Below the pieces are notes generated by a model that was not told where the DNA came from, made no database searches, and was given only the letters and a program-made list of their open reading frames with translations. 57,563 bases of DNA from a virus: the IMG/VR virus record IMGVR_UViG_3300027736_000054, positions 1 to 57,563 of that record. The stretch is one strand, 5' to 3'. The position numbers and the translations under genes are program-made. How positions within the stretch are numbered: position 1 is the stretch's first letter; each line of letters begins with the position of its first letter. Below are positions 2,796 to 55,384 of the stretch, in pieces.

Positions 2796-3611
2796 TTATT
2801 CGTACTTCTTCAGCTTCTTCTGCAACATGGCAACTTGTCGTTTAAGTTGGGCGTTTTCTGACTGGAATGTGTCTCGACTTCTGGTAACTGCTACCAATTC
2901 TATTTTTGTCAACCGCATCTCTTCCTTCAATTCGGTTATCAAATCTTTGGCCATGTCTTTATCTTCTGTCGTTCCATCAATAGAAGCAATAGCTAACTGT
3001 TCTTTCAGTTTGTCGTTCTCTGCCAACAAAGTATCAACCATTACATCGGCCTCGCTTACCTCGTCCCCTTTTATTTCTGGTGGTAACGTTTCCATTGGTG
3101 TGCGCTTGTTGACTGTACGCTCCCTGACGCTTCCTTTGTTGTCCTGATATTTGCGTGTTTCTTCGTGCGGGCTCTCTAAAGACGCTCTAAGTTTGCCAAC
3201 AAACGGATGGCTGACACCGCAATGCCGTGCTATCTCTCGGTCACTCCACTTCGACCACTCCGAATCTTGGAGCATATCTAAAACTATCTTTCGCTTATCC
3301 TCTGCCGTAGGTCGCAACCCGTGGGCCATGTTTGCTTTGTAACTGTAGAGTTTGGCATCTCGCAAAGTGCCAGCAATAACATCTGCCAATATACCTGCCT
3401 TGTCTAACTTTAGGTGAGCAAAGTAGCGGTGGAAACCATCCGCCAAATAGTGGTGGATGCCATCATTAAAAACTATGACTGGAGGAAACTTTGCCCCCTC
3501 TTCCATCTGTCTTGCGTAATCATCTACTGTCTCTTGGTTAATCTCCGCTCTTGGCTGTGTGCCTGCGTTTATTGTGATTATTTTTATGTTTAACATTTGA
3601 TTCTCTTTCAT
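2796..3611 (-). CDS. ParB/Spo0J-like DNA-binding protein
   Basis: The protein has 271 residues. The N-terminal 110 or so resemble the ParB/sulfiredoxin fold: DGFHRYFAH matches the DGxHR-type motif, preceded by a VIVFNDG strand. A helix-turn-helix follows near 115-140 (SDREIARHCGVSH). The rest is an acidic linker and a C-terminal coiled coil, which suggests a dimer. Chromosomal ParB proteins bind palindromic parS sites and spread as CTP clamps. No parA gene is visible, so segregation is not assured; transcriptional control is an alternative. Seven copies of one 14-bp palindrome occur in this window, one inside this gene (3081-3094). Confidence 0.8.
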   Translation of the reverse strand: MKENQMLNIKIITINAGTQPRAEINQETVDDYARQMEEGAKFPPVIVFNDGIHHYLADGFHRYFAHLKLDKAGILADVIAGTLRDAKLYSYKANMAHGLRPTAEDKRKIVLDMLQDSEWSKWSDREIARHCGVSHPFVGKLRASLESPHEETRKYQDNKGSVRERTVNKRTPMETLPPEIKGDEVSEADVMVDTLLAENDKLKEQLAIASIDGTTEDKDMAKDLITELKEEMRLTKIELVAVTRSRDTFQSENAQLKRQVAMLQKKLKKYE

Positions 3612-3760: not shown

Positions 3761-3918
3761 GGTTGTTCCTTTTTATATACGTCATCATAAGCCGCCCAAT
3801 GTAGCAACCAACCCCACGATAGGGTCATGCAATGTTGTCTAGCTTTTGGAGTCATCTTATGCCGATGAGGCAAATAGTAGGTCATCTTTGCCCTCTTTAA
3901 ACATTCTGATTTAATCAT
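3748..3918 (-). CDS. 56-residue hypothetical protein
   Basis: The frame opens at an ATG (3918) that overlaps the end of the zinc-ribbon gene and closes at a TAA inside the next gene. The product is basic (RHRHK-type N-terminal half) with a central WGWLLHWAAYDD segment. Starts and stops interlock with both neighbours in the pattern used by the whole operon, which is the main support. No family recognised. Confidence 0.5.
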   Translation of the reverse strand: MIKSECLKRAKMTYYLPHRHKMTPKARQHCMTLSWGWLLHWAAYDDVYKKEQPWKK

Positions 3919-4111
3919 TTTTTTCCAACTTTTTGTTTCTCATAATGTTTGTTCGCTCAATCCTTTCATCCTGCATTTTGTATGGAGACACAATTACCTC
4001 TTCCGTTGTAAAGTAGTGTCCGTTTTTACACTCTCTGCGCCTGCGATACCGAACTTCAGTTTCCCTCGCCTCTTTCACAATGGATTTAGCACCGCATATT
4101 TGGCATTTCAT
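3911..4111 (-). CDS. NrdR-like zinc-ribbon protein
   Basis: The 66-residue product begins with CQIC, followed by RRRRECKNGHYFTTEE. This resembles the N-terminal zinc ribbon of the NrdR repressor (CxxC, an arginine run, CxxxxxxFTTYE), but the second metal pair is C and H rather than CxxC. The ATP-cone that completes NrdR is absent, so it is not an NrdR orthologue. It is probably a small DNA- or RNA-binding protein. The start overlaps the stop of a 19-residue frame (ATGA). Confidence 0.65.
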   Translation of the reverse strand: MKCQICGAKSIVKEARETEVRYRRRRECKNGHYFTTEEVIVSPYKMQDERIERTNIMRNKKLEKND

Positions 4112-5193: not shown

Positions 5194-5300
5194 CAATCTT
5201 TCTCCTGAAAAACAGCCAAGGCCGCAAACAAAATAACAATGGCAACAATTGCTATTGCCGCCCCCAAAAACAAAACAAACCAGATTACGAATATTTCCAC
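5193..5300 (-). CDS. 35-residue single-span membrane microprotein (GTG start)
   Basis: Starting at GTG 5300 behind a GGGGGG ribosome binding site, the frame encodes one long hydrophobic helix (IWFVLFLGAAIAIVAIVI) with a short charged end, QEKD. It begins two bases after the stop of another tiny membrane protein and its stop overlaps the next start. It is an inner-membrane microprotein of unknown role; early phage membrane peptides can affect the host envelope or superinfection, which is only a guess here. Confidence 0.5.
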   Translation of the reverse strand: MEIFVIWFVLFLGAAIAIVAIVILFAALAVFQEKD

Positions 5301-5301
5301 T

Positions 5302-5391
5302 TCAGTCCCCCCTAAAGAAGTAAATTACCCCCATCACTATCACCACCGCTATCAAAGTACCTAATACCAACATCAATAATTTCATTACCAT
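5302..5391 (-). CDS. 29-residue single-span membrane microprotein
   Basis: The ATG at 5391 follows AAGGA at a suitable distance. The product is a single hydrophobic helix (LLMLVLGTLIAVVIVMGV) ending in FFRGD. It appears to be the first translated gene of the leftward operon, just downstream of the paired ACCAGTTA sites and a TATAAT box. Length and composition allow only the statement that it is a membrane peptide. Confidence 0.5.
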   Translation of the reverse strand: MVMKLLMLVLGTLIAVVIVMGVIYFFRGD

Positions 5392-5427
5392 TTGTGCATC
5401 CTTTTGCACAATTGTACACTATTTTAC

Positions 5428-5469
5428 ATTATATTACCAGTTAGCTAGGGAAAACACCTACCAGTTATG
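5428..5469 (-). promoter_or_regulatory. Leftward operon control site: TATAAT box and two ACCAGTTA repeats 24 bp apart
   Basis: On the minus strand TATAAT occupies 5433-5428, but the base run at the expected -35 position (5451-5456) is poor. ACCAGTTA occurs at 5436-5443 and again at 5460-5467, exactly 24 bp apart. The same pair with the same 24-bp spacing covers the strong rightward promoter at 6609-6637. I infer a protein-binding pair, a repressor or an activator that compensates for the weak -35. Confidence 0.5.
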
Positions 5470-5482
5470 TTAAAATTTAAAT

Positions 5483-5650
5483 TTATTTACGGTAGCTAAT
5501 TGTTTTGTTGCCTTTTCTTTTGTTGCATGGCCCGCATAGAGGCTGTAGATTTTCAATATTAAGCGCCAGTTCAGGATAAAACTTTCTAGGTTTTATGTGG
5601 TCTATGTTTATTGGGTGCTGTCTTGAATTTTCTTTTCCGCAACATAAACT
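5483..5650 (-). pseudogene. HNH endonuclease remnant, N-terminus lost
   Basis: The minus strand encodes a clear HNH core: CCGKENS, then INIDHIKPRKFYPELAL, then ENLQPLCGPCNKRKGNK, ending at a TAA (5483-5485). The frame is blocked by TAA at 5651-5653 and has no usable start codon before the motif. Just upstream, another frame reads GCKVY, which would join the first cysteines if a single base were added near 5645-5650. It is therefore either a frameshifted gene or the 3' portion of one interrupted by the structured element next to it. HNH enzymes of this kind are common phage homing-type nucleases. Confidence 0.6.
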
Positions 5651-5679
5651 TTACACCCTTGGTGGACGAGAGATGCTTT

Positions 5680-6000
5680 GTGGCAAGACTCTGCCTACAG
5701 GGGAGCGAATCCCCTTTCGGCATATTTCCACACCCTCGGAGCCACGTTTAGTCTCCATGTGGGGTAACATCAATCTACCTTGTGTTACCTTTAGATGCTT
5801 TCCACTGCGTAGCAATGTCTAGCTCGGCCATCTAACCCTATGCCGCCACCCGCAGACTGAACCACGGACACCATAGGAACTCCCCCGATTGCGCCTTGCA
5901 TCTTCTTTGCGCTCTCGCTTTAGACTAGAACGTTGTAGGGGCGGTGGACTGCGCACTACGCCTTACGGCTTCCTACGCTTCCCTCATGCCACCCCAAAAC
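5680..6000 (-). ncRNA. Large structured RNA candidate with a group I intron-like pseudoknot
   Basis: This stretch has no credible gene and is dense in complementary segments on the minus strand. GCUACG (5808-5813) pairs with CGUGGC (5741-5746), and AGACU (5750-5754) pairs with AGUCU (5686-5690). Their order makes a pseudoknot with the topology of group I intron P3 and P7. Between them GUGG/CCAC (5802-5805, 5759-5762) and GGUAACA/UGUUACC (5783-5789, 5763-5769) stack as a nested helix. GCC-GUAA-GGC and GC-GAGA-GC hairpins lie further upstream. No P6 helix or A-rich J8/7 is seen, so it may be a divergent intron or another large RNA class. The HNH remnant follows directly. Confidence 0.5.
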
Positions 6001-6035
6001 CCGATAGATATCTAAAACATAGATGCGTAGGGGAC

Positions 6036-6142
6036 AATAAAAAAGCCGCTTACTACTGCCCTCGGTAGGAACCCTACGGATTAAACCAAGGGCAAGGGCA
6101 TGAGTAAACGGCTTTAAAACCTGTCGCTTCCTACGGCAACAG
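6036..6142 (-). ncRNA. Short structured RNA with its own promoter and terminator
   Basis: A consensus promoter ends at 6148, giving an expected start near 6141, and a T-run closes the transcript near 6039. The roughly 105-nt RNA has a 7-bp 5' hairpin (CUGUUGC with GCGACAG), then a long terminator-type helix of 12 bp enclosing a UGCCCU/AGGGCA helix. GUAGGAA in the first loop is complementary to UUCCUAC inside the second hairpin, so a loop-loop contact or a switch is possible. It could be a free regulatory RNA or an attenuator leader for the leftward operon. Confidence 0.6.
6039..6114 (-). terminator. Rho-independent terminator of the short RNA
   Basis: On the minus strand 12 bases at 6114-6103 pair with 12 bases at 6054-6043 (one G-U pair), followed by six U residues (6044-6039). 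A second helix sits in the loop. The stem is long and closed, typical of an intrinsic terminator. Confidence 0.65.
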
Positions 6143-6147
6143 TTCCG

Positions 6148-6175
6148 ATTATACAGATATTTTAATCGGTGTCAA
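6148..6175 (-). promoter_or_regulatory. Consensus sigma70 promoter, leftward
   Basis: On the minus strand TTGACA (6175-6170), a 16-bp spacer and TATAAT (6153-6148) match both sigma70 hexamers perfectly. It reads into the short RNA, and beyond that into the large structured region and the leftward operon if the terminator is passed. Confidence 0.8.
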
Positions 6176-6196
6176 ATACGACACGATGTCGCTTTT

Positions 6197-6225
6197 AAAA
6201 AAAAAGTGGGGCCACATGACCCCAC
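6197..6225 (-). terminator. Intrinsic terminator after the nuclease gene
   Basis: GTGGGG (6225-6220) and CCCCAC (6211-6206) on the minus strand form a perfect 6-bp G+C-rich stem, followed by nine T residues (6205-6197). It lies about 50 bp after the nuclease stop, so that gene is probably transcribed alone and insulated from the short RNA promoter. Confidence 0.85.
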
Positions 6226-6274
6226 AATCCTATTACTAGGAGAACTATGAAGCGGCAACTGCGCCGCACCTCTA

Positions 6275-6562
6275 TCATACACAGTTTTTTAGCAATGCCA
6301 ATGCCTCATCTACGTTATTAACTACGGCCAACATACCGCCTTCCCAATTATCAAAAAAATTTTTCTCTGCTGGTGTTAGCGTTCTAGCCGATGGCGGTTT
6401 GTTTCCGTCTTTAATTTCAAGCAATAAGGTAAAACCCCTATAGCCCACTAATAAATCAGGTATGCCATCGCCCTGACTAATTATGCGTACATAAGCACCA
6501 CACGCCCGTAACGCATTAACTATTTCATTTTGGTTCTCATCAATCCTGTTGGCTCTTCTCAT
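6275..6562 (-). CDS. PD-(D/E)XK nuclease (VRR-NUC/resolvase-like)
   Basis: The 95-residue product has the compact PD-(D/E)XK core. GIPDLLVG places the aspartate at residue 36, and LLLEIKDG places E49-x-K51. This layout is seen in VRR-NUC domains and archaeal-type Holliday junction resolvases, so branched or nicked DNA is a plausible substrate. I start at the ATG at 6562; the frame continues upstream into repeat sequence with a poor protein character. The start codon overlaps the palindrome TGGTAACGTTTCCA, which also covers the ribosome binding site region. The gene stands alone between a candidate weak promoter near 6594-6622 and a terminator. Confidence 0.8.
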   Translation of the reverse strand: MRRANRIDENQNEIVNALRACGAYVRIISQGDGIPDLLVGYRGFTLLLEIKDGNKPPSARTLTPAEKNFFDNWEGGMLAVVNNVDEALALLKNCV

Positions 6563-6575
6563 GGTAACGTTTCCA
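6562..6575. promoter_or_regulatory. 14-bp palindrome over the nuclease start codon
   Basis: TGGTAACGTTTCCA overlaps the first base of the nuclease ATG and its ribosome binding region. It is one of seven copies in the window, with 1229-1242, 3081-3094, 16831-16844, 21262-21275, 55173-55186 and 55312-55325. The sequence fits LacI/GalR-type operators and could also be a parS-like site. Binding is inferred. Confidence 0.5.
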
Positions 6576-6608
6576 TCATAAGTATTTGTAGCAGTTATAA
6601 CATACCTA

Positions 6609-6659
6609 TTGACAACACACAATAAACCAGTTATAATCCCATCACTTAGACCAGTTATG
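6609..6659 (+). promoter_or_regulatory. Perfect sigma70 promoter with a pair of ACCAGTTAT operators, rightward
   Basis: TTGACA (6609-6614), a 17-bp spacer and TATAAT (6632-6637) form an exact consensus promoter pointing right. ACCAGTTAT occurs at 6626-6634, overlapping the -10 box, and at 6650-6658, just past the expected start near 6644. They are 24 bp apart, as at 5436/5460. A bound protein at the first site would block the polymerase, so repression is likely. The transcript would run through the hairpin array toward the recombination operon. Confidence 0.8.
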
Positions 6660-6660
6660 T

Positions 6661-7763
6661 ATGGTCTGGTGCGGTTAGGCGGGGTAGGTTGAGGCAAGGT
6701 AGGCTGCGGGCTGACAACAGTCGATAGGTGATTAGCAATAGTCATCCTTCGAGTGAGGTGGGGTCAGGTGCGGTTAGGTGTGGTAAGTTTAGGTTTGGTG
6801 AGGCGAGGTAAGGGCTGACAACAGTCGATAGGTGATTAGCAATAGTCATCCTTCGAGTGGGATTTGGTACGGTAGGGTCGAGCGGGGTGAGGTCAGGTTG
6901 GGTGGGGTAAGGTCCGGTGCGGTATGGTAAGGAACTAGCAATAGTCGATGGGTGATTAGAAATAGTCATCTTTCGAGTGGGGTTAGGTTATGCTGGGTAA
7001 GGCAGGGTGCGGCGAGGTATGGACTGACAACAGTCGATAGGCAATTCAATGAGTTGCTCTTCGAGTGTTCGGTAAGGTAAGGTACGGTAAGGCGAGGTCT
7101 GGCGAGGTAGGGTATGGAAAGGTGCGGCTTGGTTTGGACTGATAACAGTCGGTTGAAGATTGGCAACAGTCTTTTTCCGAGTGTTTTGTTGGGGTAGGGT
7201 ACGGTAAGGCTAGGTCAGGTTTGGTCGGGTAGGGCGTGGAACTAGTAATAGTCGATAGGACATTTTCACAAGTGTCTCTTCGAGTATTGAATTCGGTGCG
7301 GTGGGGTGGGGTCGGGTATGGTTGGTTTGGGTTTTGTCGGGTTGGGTAATGTATGGGCTGACAACAGTCGATAGGGCATTAGAAATAGTGTTCCTTCGAG
7401 TGTTAATCAAATGGGGCTTGGTCGGGTTCGGACGGTTTGGTCGGGCGAGGCTGGGTGCGGTGCGGTGAAGTCAGGCACGGTTTGGCAAGGAACTAGCAAT
7501 AGTCGATAGGTGATTAGAAATAGTCATCCTTCGAGTACTGCGGTGAGGTGCGGCAAGGGACGGTTTGGTTAGGTGGGGTCGGGCGAGGTACGGTCGGGCA
7601 AGGCATGGAACTAGCAATAGTCGATAGGGTATTGGAAACAGTACCACTTCGAGTGGGGTTAGGTGCGGTGTGTTACGGCACGGTATGGAGAGGCGAGGTA
7701 TGGCAAGGTCAGGTATGGGCTAATGTAGCGGATAGGGTATTGGTAACAGTACCACTTCCGATG
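6661..7763 (+). repeat. Array of ten covarying hairpins separated by period-5 GGYNN tracts
   Basis: This 1.1-kb region has no gene that I accept. It alternates tracts in which GG recurs every five bases (GGT or GGC then two free bases, up to about 13 units) with conserved blocks. In each block a 31-32 base hairpin lies at 6721-6752, 6825-6856, 6945-6976, 7034-7064, 7149-7180, 7252-7283, 7368-7399, 7503-7534, 7621-7652 and 7729-7760. The shared plan is an outer 4-bp stem, a one-base bulge, 2 bp, a 4-bp stem of variable sequence, 3 bp and a loop that is GNRA in eight of ten copies on the plus strand. A smaller hairpin precedes most copies. The strong promoter at 6609 reads into it. Function unknown; I know no matching family. 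Confidence 0.85.
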
Positions 7764-7797
7764 CAACGGTGCATCAATTAACTTTTTTAGGAAAACT

Positions 7798-8364
7798 ATG
7801 AAACAACTTTCAATCAAAATCAACGGCACGGCTCCATTACTTATGCACTCAGATAGGTTTGCAGACCCGCTCAATCCATTAACCAAGGCGCACAAAGAGT
7901 TAACCGGCAAGCGCAAGAAGACAGATGATGATTTAATTGCCATTGCTAAAAGTGAATTTATTGGTAGCTGCTATTGGAATAACTCTGTTGGCTTTCATCT
8001 GCCATCACAAATGTTGGAAAGCTGTTTAATTAATGGCGCAAAACTTCAAAAACTTGGCACTAAATTTAAACAAAGTGTACGGGTGCTTGAAGATGAACTT
8101 CCATTGGTTGGTTACACCAAAACAAATCCCGAAAAACTTTGGGACAACCCTGAGATGCGTGACGCACGAGGCGTAAGAGTTGGAACATCAAAGATTATTC
8201 GTTACCGCCCAATCTTTAGACAATGGAGTTTGTCGGCCACAATCACAATTGACGAGGATGTTGTTAACGTCAACGAGGTTAAGAAAGCCATTGAAGATGC
8301 TGGGAAACTAATTGGCCTTGGGGATTACCGTCCACGTTTTGGTCGTTTTGAGGCAGTAATCTGA
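7798..8364 (+). CDS. First gene of the recombination operon; RAMP-like glycine-rich loop
   Basis: The 188-residue product contains beta-rich segments and ends in GLGDYRPRFGRFEAV. That ending resembles the glycine-rich loop near the C-terminus of RAMP (Cas7-like, ferredoxin-fold) proteins. Other RAMP-defining features cannot be checked by eye, so this is a weak fold suggestion. The start has AGGAAAA upstream and follows the hairpin array by about 35 bp. The stop overlaps the next start (TGATG). Its position with a Cas4-like nuclease and an annealase points to nucleic-acid binding during recombination. Confidence 0.6.
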   Translation: MKQLSIKINGTAPLLMHSDRFADPLNPLTKAHKELTGKRKKTDDDLIAIAKSEFIGSCYWNNSVGFHLPSQMLESCLINGAKLQKLGTKFKQSVRVLEDELPLVGYTKTNPEKLWDNPEMRDARGVRVGTSKIIRYRPIFRQWSLSATITIDEDVVNVNEVKKAIEDAGKLIGLGDYRPRFGRFEAVI

Positions 8365-8849
8365 TGGATACAACGCTTTACCCTGCATGGAAAGAGGCTG
8401 TTAAGCGGCTTCTTGATGGTGGCATGACCTACGGCAGTACGGTTAAGCGCAGTTATTTAATTGAATTGTGTGGAGTAGCGCCCCCCACTTCAATTGAAGA
8501 TGTGCGTAGATACGATTTGGAAGTGCTGAAGTGCATAACCGACATTAAAGATACGCTACTGACTGCTCACTGTATGTTGTTGGCAACCGACAATGCCGGT
8601 AGTTATGTTGTTATTGCGCCTGAATCTCAGACGCAATACGCCGTAGACAATGGTGTTAAGGCCATTACTAAAGAGATGAAGAAGATGGCAATGAATGTTA
8701 GCTTCACTAAGACGGCCTTACTTTCAGACCCGCAACGAGCAAAGAATGCTGATGCGCAAGCAAAGATTTCTATGTTGGCGGGGATGATGGGCAAGGAGAA
8801 TCGGGAACTTAAACGCTTGGCCGGAACAAGAAATGAAATTAACGAATAA
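8364..8849 (+). CDS. Hypothetical protein of the recombination operon
   Basis: The 161-residue product has a helical N-terminal half with VKRSYLIELCGVAPP and an RRYDLEVLKC segment, and a polar, helical C-terminus. No catalytic motif is visible. It is coupled to the preceding gene by TGATG and overlaps the nuclease gene by 17 bp. The setting suggests an accessory of the nuclease-annealase system, but nothing in the sequence proves it. Confidence 0.6.
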   Translation: MDTTLYPAWKEAVKRLLDGGMTYGSTVKRSYLIELCGVAPPTSIEDVRRYDLEVLKCITDIKDTLLTAHCMLLATDNAGSYVVIAPESQTQYAVDNGVKAITKEMKKMAMNVSFTKTALLSDPQRAKNADAQAKISMLAGMMGKENRELKRLAGTRNEINE

Positions 8850-10675: not shown

Positions 10676-11095
10676 ATGAAAACATCACAGTTTGAAGCGG
10701 TAAAGGTTGCCATCAAACAGGATAAGACTGGGTATGTGCTTACCCTTTCTATCCATCCCGATGAAATCCCTGACGAAATCATGCGTGATTTTGTTGGGGC
10801 TAGGTATCAGGTTGTGATGGTTCGGATAAACGAACAAGAGGCGCCAATGAATCGTGAGCAGGAACTGGCACGAAACATTGTTCAACTTGCAGGAGTATTG
10901 TGTGGAGACGAGAGTTTCCATCATTGGGTGCTTGAACTGGGGTTCATCAACGAGCCATCGGCAAGGGCGGCAACAGAGTGGTTAAGGGCTGAACTGGGTG
11001 TGCAATCAAGAGCAGAACTTAAAACCAACAAAGAAGCGGCACAGAAATTAATTCAAATCAACGAGGAATTCAAAGCATGGAAGCGAAAAAACTAA
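10676..11095 (+). CDS. Hypothetical protein of the recombination operon
   Basis: The 139-residue product opens with a beta-rich region (AIKQDKTGYVLTLSIHPDEIP) and continues with helices and a WLRAELGVQSRAEL segment. Similar proteins seem to recur in phages of Burkholderiales, but I know no function. It starts one base after the previous stop and overlaps the next gene by 19 bp. A role in early DNA metabolism is inferred from context only. Confidence 0.6.
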   Translation: MKTSQFEAVKVAIKQDKTGYVLTLSIHPDEIPDEIMRDFVGARYQVVMVRINEQEAPMNREQELARNIVQLAGVLCGDESFHHWVLELGFINEPSARAATEWLRAELGVQSRAELKTNKEAAQKLIQINEEFKAWKRKN

Positions 11096-11397
11096 TCCCC
11101 TACTCGGTACATCTGAGAGAGGACATTTATCTTAAACTGAAAACGGCTGCGGGTGACCGCAAAGCGGCTGGCATGGTACGAGATGCTATTACCATGTTGA
11201 TTGAGGGTGACGACACCTTTAACGCAGGGTACAACAAGGCAATTAAAGATGTAATTAATATTGTTCAAGAGAACCAAAGCGCAAACGCTATTGCTATAGA
11301 GGGACAAACAATTGCTCAAATATTAAACAGGACTTTTTCTGAAATGATTGTTACTCAATCTGTAAAAGGAAACTCAAATGGCAAGAAAAAAAGCTGA
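11077..11397 (+). CDS. Ribbon-helix-helix-like small protein
   Basis: The 106-residue product begins with a segment of the form beta-strand then two helices (YSVHLREDIYLKLKTAAGDR, then AGMVRDAITMLI). This suggests a CopG/Arc-type ribbon-helix-helix, a fold often used for small phage repressors. The rest is helical with a basic KKKS tail. It could be the protein that binds the ACCAGTTA or other operators, but that is a guess. It overlaps both neighbouring genes. Confidence 0.5.
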   Translation: MEAKKLIPYSVHLREDIYLKLKTAAGDRKAAGMVRDAITMLIEGDDTFNAGYNKAIKDVINIVQENQSANAIAIEGQTIAQILNRTFSEMIVTQSVKGNSNGKKKS

Positions 11398-53519: not shown

Positions 53520-55013
53520 TTAATAATAAATCTGTTTGCGCCTGAAACTTTGAAGCTCTTCTCGCTCATCCGTTGCAAGCCGTAAAAACCCGCCCTTCCT
53601 GAATCTTATCAGCGCTTGGGTACTTGAGTCCACTAAATCATCATTCGGCGCATTAGGAAATGCAGCCATCTCTTCTATCAATTCATCCGCCCATCTCGTC
53701 TCCGGCGCCCACACCTTACCAGACGCAAACAAATCAGCAACAGAATTAATCCTCACAAACTTATCATTCCCCCTGCTCGGCGTATATTCACTCACCACAA
53801 TCCCCATCTGCCGCAATTCAAATATCAAAGGACTTCCAGCAGCCTTCGCCTCAATCACAAAAGCATCCGGCTCCCAATCCATATAGTTCCGATACGCCTT
53901 CTCCTTAAGTTCAGGAAACTCCATCCTCTTCTTAAACGCATCCAACAAAATAATATGAGCATCCTCTTCATTCTCATTTAAATAAAACACACCCCAAGTC
54001 GTACACGCACTATAGTCACTTCTCTCATTCTTCGTAAACGCCGTGTCCCAACTCTGAATAATAAAAGAACAATCCGGTGGGTCATCCTTCAACCACCTCT
54101 TCCACCACTCCCGCTTAACAATAGCACCCTCCTCACCAGTGGGATTTTGCTGATACTGCGCATTCCACTTGGCTGGTGGTAACTCCTCCCTTAGAGCAGC
54201 CAGTTGCTCCAACGGCCAGAACTCAGGCCACAACGGATTACCACTCGGCATAATCGCAGGCAGCTCAATAATCTCCCACTCATCTCCCTTGTCCCTACCT
54301 AGTGCATCCTTAATCACTCTACCAGTTAAGTCCCTATCGCCCCAACGGGTCATCACAATAACAATAGCACCACCCGGCTGTAAACGTTGCCGTGGTCCAG
54401 ATGTATACCACTCATACACCTTATCGTAAATACTTGGGTCGCCAGCAGCCAATGCAGCCTCTTGCTCCGAATGCGGGTCATCAATAATTAAAAGGTCAGC
54501 ACCCTTACCCGTCACCGTTCCCCCAACACCAATAGCAAAATATTCCCCGCCCCCACTAGTGGCCCACCGGCCAGCAGCTTTACTATCCTGTCTCAAATTA
54601 ACATTAGGAAACACCTCAGAATATTGCTCACTACCAACCAAGTTCCTAACCTTACGCCCAAACCCAACAGCCAAGTCAGCCGTGTTAGAACACTGAATCA
54701 CCTTCTTATTAGGAAACCTACCCAAAAACCAACTAGGCAATAAATAACTAGCAAACTCCGACTTCGTATGCCGTGGAGGCATATTAATAATAACCCGCCT
54801 AATCTTCCCATCAGCAATATCCTCAAACTTCTTAGCCATCAAAGCATGATGCCTGCCAGATATAAACCCCGGCCACATAGTCTTCACATACTCCAAAAAC
54901 TTGGTCTGACCCTTCTCCCTCTTCACAGCATTCTGAAAGTTAACAACCTTCTCCATGAACGCCTCATACTCAGCAGGGTCCAACTTCTCAATCAACTCCT
55001 CCAACTTACTCAC
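53520..55013 (-). CDS. terL: Terminase large subunit
   Basis: The 497-residue motor protein has the ATPase motif PPRHTKSE (79-86), Walker B LLIIDDPHSE near 172 and nuclease motif IIQSWDTAFTKN near 318. It drives DNA into the procapsid and cuts it. It starts with GTG at 55013, which overlaps the stop of the gene before it as GTGA. Circular permutation of the window fits a headful-type packaging system, but that cannot be read from this sequence alone. Confidence 0.92.
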   Translation of the reverse strand: MSKLEELIEKLDPAEYEAFMEKVVNFQNAVKREKGQTKFLEYVKTMWPGFISGRHHALMAKKFEDIADGKIRRVIINMPPRHTKSEFASYLLPSWFLGRFPNKKVIQCSNTADLAVGFGRKVRNLVGSEQYSEVFPNVNLRQDSKAAGRWATSGGGEYFAIGVGGTVTGKGADLLIIDDPHSEQEAALAAGDPSIYDKVYEWYTSGPRQRLQPGGAIVIVMTRWGDRDLTGRVIKDALGRDKGDEWEIIELPAIMPSGNPLWPEFWPLEQLAALREELPPAKWNAQYQQNPTGEEGAIVKREWWKRWLKDDPPDCSFIIQSWDTAFTKNERSDYSACTTWGVFYLNENEEDAHIILLDAFKKRMEFPELKEKAYRNYMDWEPDAFVIEAKAAGSPLIFELRQMGIVVSEYTPSRGNDKFVRINSVADLFASGKVWAPETRWADELIEEMAAFPNAPNDDLVDSSTQALIRFRKGGFLRLATDEREELQSFRRKQIYY

Positions 55014-55384
55014 TCTAAATTCCTAAAGTTAATATACACCGGCCTAATACTCCTCTTCCCCTCTAACTTCTTCACAACACCCAACCCGCACAACCTATCA
55101 ACAATCTTCTTCGTATTAGCAATACTATTTTTCCCACGCTGATTAGTTATATCCCTCAATGTCGGACTAAAGTGGAAACGTTTCCACCACTCATCTATAA
55201 TTAAAAACACCTCATTTTGCGCTGGACTCATCTTTATTTCCAAACATTGTTCGTAAGTTAAATCTTTCTTCTTCTCTACCATGCTTCTATTTAATACTAA
55301 TGGGGGGGTGATGGAAACGTTTCCATCCACATCTAAAAGTTTTAAATTTTTATACCCCCCTACCCCCTTCGTATTACTTTTCAT
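55010..55384 (-). CDS. Winged-helix DNA-binding protein
   Basis: The 124-residue frame contains SPAQNEVFLIIDEWWKRFHF, SPTLRDITNQRGKNSIAN and a KIVDRLCGLGVVKKL wing, close to the LexA N-terminal winged helix pattern. The ATG at 55384 overlaps the previous gene. An internal ATG at 55282 would still include the full domain and would place the palindrome at 55312-55325 in the upstream leader. A second palindrome (55173-55186) lies within the gene. It could be a regulator that binds these sites, or a packaging-region protein. Confidence 0.65.
   Translation of the reverse strand: MKSNTKGVGGYKNLKLLDVDGNVSITPPLVLNRSMVEKKKDLTYEQCLEIKMSPAQNEVFLIIDEWWKRFHFSPTLRDITNQRGKNSIANTKKIVDRLCGLGVVKKLEGKRSIRPVYINFRNLE
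55312..55325. promoter_or_regulatory. 14-bp palindrome near the winged-helix gene start
   Basis: TGGAAACGTTTCCA is a perfect palindrome 30 bp upstream of the alternative start at 55282. With the same sequence at 55173-55186, it makes the closest pair of such sites in the window (139 bp apart). Autoregulation by the winged-helix protein or binding by the ParB-like protein are the two readings. Confidence 0.5.

Follow-up and report, generated by a model that had tools for sequence, protein, structure and literature searches.

The 57,563 nucleotides of viral DNA analyzed here (IMG/VR record IMGVR_UViG_3300027736_000054; hereafter, the window) contain an array of repeated units behind a promoter of exact consensus, which raises the question of what this array encodes and what decides when it is transcribed. 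An earlier note, made from the letters alone, had proposed that the promoter feeds the array. This assignment was retained, although the note had not named the type of the array, whose units are VIPR guide RNAs. The locus belongs to a VIPR system and contains ten vrRNA units in one array. According to the main text of the preprint in which VIPR was described in 2026 (PMC13142463), the system is RNA guided, is proposed to be older than CRISPR, and is used in phage-phage conflict. It comprises the Vipr protein and vrRNAs of 9 to 16 tandem GGY/NN units with a folded 3' tail, and it reads DNA by a 1-nt skip rule (PMC13142463).

The array extends from 6663 to 7763 on the plus strand. Each unit consists of a (GGYNN)8-15 tract followed by a folded tail of approximately 46 nt, and the tails start at 6709, 6813, 6933, 7022, 7137, 7240, 7356, 7491, 7609, and 7718. 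The ten tracts parse as 8 to 15 pentamers, with a few units degenerate or shifted. Comparison of 19 tails from the array and from relatives revealed that 98.9% of the cells were paired, 39 with changes on both sides, and none of 500 shuffles reached the level of covariation seen in these tails. Ten tails were counted here, compared to 0 to 7 in the relatives examined, by a loose pattern. The unit adjoining vipr (7718-7797) carries a distinct conserved tail, GGGCTAATGTAGCGG...CGATGCAA..GTGCATC. The same differing last-unit tail, unlike the tails of the other units, is found in most close relatives.

The gene following the array (7798-8364, plus strand) encodes the Vipr protein, which belongs to phrog_4652 and has a RAMP fold. 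The only PDB sequence matched was 36pp_D, "SUSP1 Vipr protein" (profile E value, 4e-64; phmmer E value, 4.8e-52). The AF2 model (pLDDT, 91.9) matched Csm3/Cas7-type RAMP proteins in Foldseek, with E values down to 2e-5, and aligned in VIA-align with Z scores of about 10 to 11 to the backbone subunits of type VII and type III-A systems. Directly after vipr, a Vap-like protein is encoded (8364-8849, plus strand) that resembles SUSP1 agp038, the product of the gene after vipr in that phage (38 bits; pairwise E value, 6e-9). GGNNN tracts were located directly upstream of the Vipr gene in nearly all of 62 IMG/VR relatives. Of the features that characterize VIPR, a Vipr RAMP protein, GGY/NN tracts, a folded 3' tail, and an adjacent vap were found in the window. 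Comparison of 64 guides with the relatives' loci examined gave no match. Exact patterns of 20 to 22 bases for targets of three guides in IMG/VR, and an exact pattern for one guide in genome_contigs, gave no match either; mismatched targets would be missed by both searches. Rfam at gathering thresholds returned nothing for the window, and its single match on 5300-8000, to ncS16, was below threshold (26.8 bits versus a cutoff of 48). No phage match was obtained by megablast with the left part of the window.

The array promoter (6609-6637, plus strand) consists of TTGACA (6609-6614) and TATAAT (6632-6637) with a 17-bp spacer, an exact sigma70 consensus as the earlier note had stated, and its predicted transcript start lies near 6644. 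Exact 12/12 promoters with spacers of 15 to 19 bp occur twice in the window, compared to 0.09 on average in 400 dinucleotide shuffles. Alignment revealed that the array promoter is retained in relatives, where it is positioned ahead of their arrays. It shares an intergenic control region with a divergent gene for a small nuclease (6275-6562, minus strand; phrog_93 match). The other 12/12 promoter, which the earlier note had not mentioned, is located on the minus strand approximately 430 bp away (TTGACA at 6175, 16-bp spacer, TATAAT at 6148). It reads into a very stable hairpin RNA of approximately 110 nt (6030-6175; fold z, -5.6) that ends with a terminator-like stem and a T run. No operator was found at this second promoter. 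Therefore, an exact consensus is by itself uninformative on repression, and the earlier suggestion that it implies tight repression did not hold. Several relatives that pair weaker promoters with the same operators undercut this suggestion as well.

Around the array promoter, the word ACCAGTTAT occurs twice, and both copies are predicted operator sites. Site 2 (6626-6634, plus strand) overlaps the -10 box, and site 3 (6650-6658, plus strand) lies 24 bp farther on, just within the transcript, in agreement with what had been reported. The third, partial copy of the note, AGCAGTTATAA (6590-6600, plus strand), is present near the start of the nuclease gene, but CAGTTATAA begins at 6592 and not at 6593. 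A degenerate site, ACCTATTGA (6604-6612, plus strand), shares its register with ACCTATTGCA / ACCTGTTGC in relatives L029, L023, L025, and L026; it is weak and was seen in the alignment only. The ACCAGTTAT 9-mer is not rare, with 18 matches at no more than one mismatch in the window versus 14.5 expected. Outside the array, the window contains four cases of a 9-mer pair repeated at equal spacing at two distant places, three of them in repetitive (coding) sequence; no such case was seen in 100 dinucleotide shuffles. The exact pattern ACCAGTTAT-15-ACCAGTTAT was matched 31 times in IMG/VR. These matches were rejected as related operators: their context is repetitive and codon-like, they look like coding repeats, and no homology to genes of this phage was seen. 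Only the promoter context and the relatives give the ACCAGTTAT pair meaning.

Fourteen related array promoters from IMG/VR were compared with that of the window (15 in total), and expected numbers were derived from the remaining sequence of their contigs. The motif ACC(A/T)G(A/C/T)T(A/G) (ACCWGHTR), which was defined after inspection of the promoters, occurred 37 times in the 15 promoter regions versus 0.7 expected, an approximately 52-fold enrichment over the remaining contig sequence; the 15 promoters are not independent because they are related by descent. Measured from where the -10 box ends, the sites are located mostly at about -12 and +12/13, with more near -33 and -57. Most internal repeats within single promoter regions of approximately 120 bp are not significant alone. 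Direct copies 24 bp apart were found at the corresponding place in L069 (TACCTGCTATAA / TACCTGATATAA), and a weaker direct pair with the same spacing was found in L031 (AACCTACCTG/AACCTACCCG). L035 and L038 have a perfect inverted repeat at that position, and L029, L040, and L053 carry the window's own word in inverted form (AACCAGTTAG) at +12. Between relatives, the sites have drifted in sequence and orientation, and their registers have mostly been kept. Conserved registers and the 52-fold enrichment support the view that the paired sites behave like operators. Loss of the paired sites from relatives that keep the promoter, which would have spoken against the earlier note, was not seen among those that combine the divergent nuclease with a promoter of this type. 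Sites were absent only from a separate promoter type (L015, L018, L024, and L028), in which an array promoter is kept.

The same element is used at a second operon. Upstream of the leftward operon, an exact copy of ACCAGTTAT (5460-5468, plus strand) is positioned 24 bp from ACCAGTTAG (5436-5444, plus strand). The latter lies beside TATAAT (5428-5433, minus strand), the putative -10 box of this operon, for which no convincing -35 box was found. The earlier note had described the same element at the same spacing here; the spacing and the copy at 5460 agree, but the copy at 5436 matches at only 8 of 9 positions. In the relatives L023, L025, and L026 (contigs of 41 to 61 kb), a different word, TACCTGCTAY, occurs exactly twice per contig. 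One copy lies over the -10 box of the array promoter, and the other, at the leftward operon head, lies over a TATAA-type -10 box. The same site type is thus present in both control regions and is kept in relatives. These results support a link between the two operons by paired operators. Of the claim that a shared regulator joins them, the sharing of sites is confirmed independently by three relatives, whereas the regulator itself is a matter of candidates.

Several further elements were observed in this part of the genome. The leftward operon encodes an NrdR-type zinc-ribbon protein (3911-4111, minus strand; Pfam E value, 6e-5, below the cutoff). In relatives, this operon begins with a small HTH-like protein (L026, 1849-2049, minus strand; L023, about 2345, minus strand), of which no counterpart was seen in the ORF list of the window. 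A noncoding, GC-rich stretch (5684-6007, minus strand) shows about 71 to 85% DNA identity in relatives, with counterparts in L021 (2331-2791), L026 (2540-2872), L040, and L032, and has no Rfam match. In L026, an HNH endonuclease gene (2159-2512) directly follows the counterpart, and the stretch in the window adjoins a truncated HNH piece (about 5483-5640). It is possibly an RNA of a new type tied to HNH genes.

The last gene of the array operon (11077-11397, plus strand) encodes a ribbon-helix-helix (RHH)/CopG-like protein, a candidate repressor. Homologs were found downstream, in the same gene order, in 10 of the 10 operator-bearing loci long enough to include this region. When twelve homologs were combined in a profile, it matched CopG chains weakly at the ribbon-helix-helix part (E values, 0.015/0.038 over residues 7 to 57), and 4 of the 12 weakly matched RHH_1 (best E value, 0.048). 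The AF2 monomer model was poor (pLDDT, 67), too poor for a fold search. L015 and L028, which lack these sites, still encode an RHH homolog. Taken together, the comparison is suggestive of the RHH-like protein as the best candidate regulator.

The sites might instead be real operators of a different regulator, an explanation that we regard as unlikely but worth retaining. DNA-binding candidates are available in the window, namely, a LexA-like winged-helix protein (55010-55384; LexA-type domain E value, 0.006) and a ParB/HTH-like protein (2796-3611; phrog_1033; E value, 7e-20). The leftward HTH-like protein of the relatives might also serve, since the first leftward gene past the operator in L026 looks HTH and L023 starts similarly there, as might a host factor. 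However, the operator-bearing loci examined, which are short, yielded no homolog of the LexA-like protein, and the HTH gene is the one for which no counterpart was seen in the window, whereas the RHH-like protein is the DNA-binding candidate present in all loci reaching far enough.

It is rather improbable that the promoter is simply strong and constitutive, with no dedicated regulator, and that the words are duplication remnants or RNA structure. The operator-free promoter at 6175 fits such an explanation, and site 3 sits inside a predicted leader hairpin, AGACCA..TGGTCT, which is weak (z, -1.4). A register kept despite changes in sequence and orientation and the reuse of the sites at the leftward operon would be unexpected, however, and a register that stays constant while the words and their direction vary is better explained by protein-binding sites than by chance or RNA structure. 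That the VIPR complex itself regulates both operons through vrRNAs matching the control regions is very hard to credit: promoter-directed VIPR is described as repressing transcription (PMC13142463, main text), but matches of the guides to their own genome were no better with a 1-nt skip than with skips of 0, 2, or 3 nt, and none of the best matches lay at the operators.

We therefore favor, with a probability of roughly 0.6, a regulated VIPR-locus promoter at which a phage DNA-binding protein, probably the RHH-like one, blocks polymerase and also controls the leftward operon. The near-ideal sigma70 promoter would transcribe the ten-unit vrRNA array first, and transcription would continue through vipr and vap to the recombination genes (exonuclease/Erf). 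The protein, probably that encoded at 11077-11397, would bind the ladder of sites spaced by roughly 24 bp, and its occupation of the -10 box and the first transcribed bases would exclude polymerase, which presumes repression rather than activation. Through the sites at 5436 and 5460, the same protein would limit the leftward operon. With the regulator encoded last in the operon, this would amount to negative feedback, and the likely outcome would be that guide RNAs and early proteins are produced in a burst once the phage has entered, followed by shutdown. The operator-flanked promoter probably acts as the switch for production of the VIPR weapon and sets its timing.

VIPR itself is already known from the 2026 preprint (PMC13142463), and this locus is a further member whose control region is well defined; promoters, operators, and the switching-on of guide arrays are not discussed in the main text of that preprint. 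The locus provides a concrete, testable control region with a candidate regulator in the same operon, relatives in which sites and regulator can be compared, and a large ten-guide array. As a tentative and somewhat doubtful generalization, VIPR arrays may commonly be under a dedicated, fast-evolving repressor that is encoded in the array operon and acts at paired sites around the first vrRNA start, with an equivalent of unrelated sequence in the Felix O1-like VIPR phages SUSP1 and wV8. If so, a dedicated repressor would tie guide production to the early gene switch of the phage.

Class 1 CRISPR-Cas systems resemble the window in combining a guide array with a RAMP-fold protein (Csm3/Cas7 backbone). 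In contrast to these, the window has guides made of GGY/NN pentamers and a promoter with phage-type operators, and no adaptation genes were seen. Autoregulated repressors at phage early promoters are exemplified by Arc/Mnt of P22 and Cro/CI of lambda, and there, as in the window, operators lie over the -10 box and start site and are common to two control regions. The window differs from these examples in that its binding protein is a candidate only, its first product is a guide-RNA array, and sites of its type switch orientation between relatives.

The SUSP1 VIPR system (PMC13142463) shares with the window the Vipr and Vap homologs, the GGY/NN tracts, and the folded 3' tail. In SUSP1 and wV8, as in the window, a near-consensus promoter (TTGACA-16-TATACT) precedes the first vrRNA; these promoters are located at about 2737-2800 in L104 and about 3103-3160 in L010. 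An inverted repeat, GGTGAGTA..TACTCACC, covers the -10 box and the early transcript. The SUSP1 promoter word GGTGAGTATACT has a single occurrence each in SUSP1 and wV8, which gives no sign of sharing with another operon in these phages, whereas the window has a different operator word that is found again at a second operon. Also unlike SUSP1, all guides found in the window precede vipr in a single ten-unit array, and the array operon continues with recombination genes and the RHH-like gene. These comparisons of control sequences hint that regulated start sites may be a wider habit of VIPR loci.
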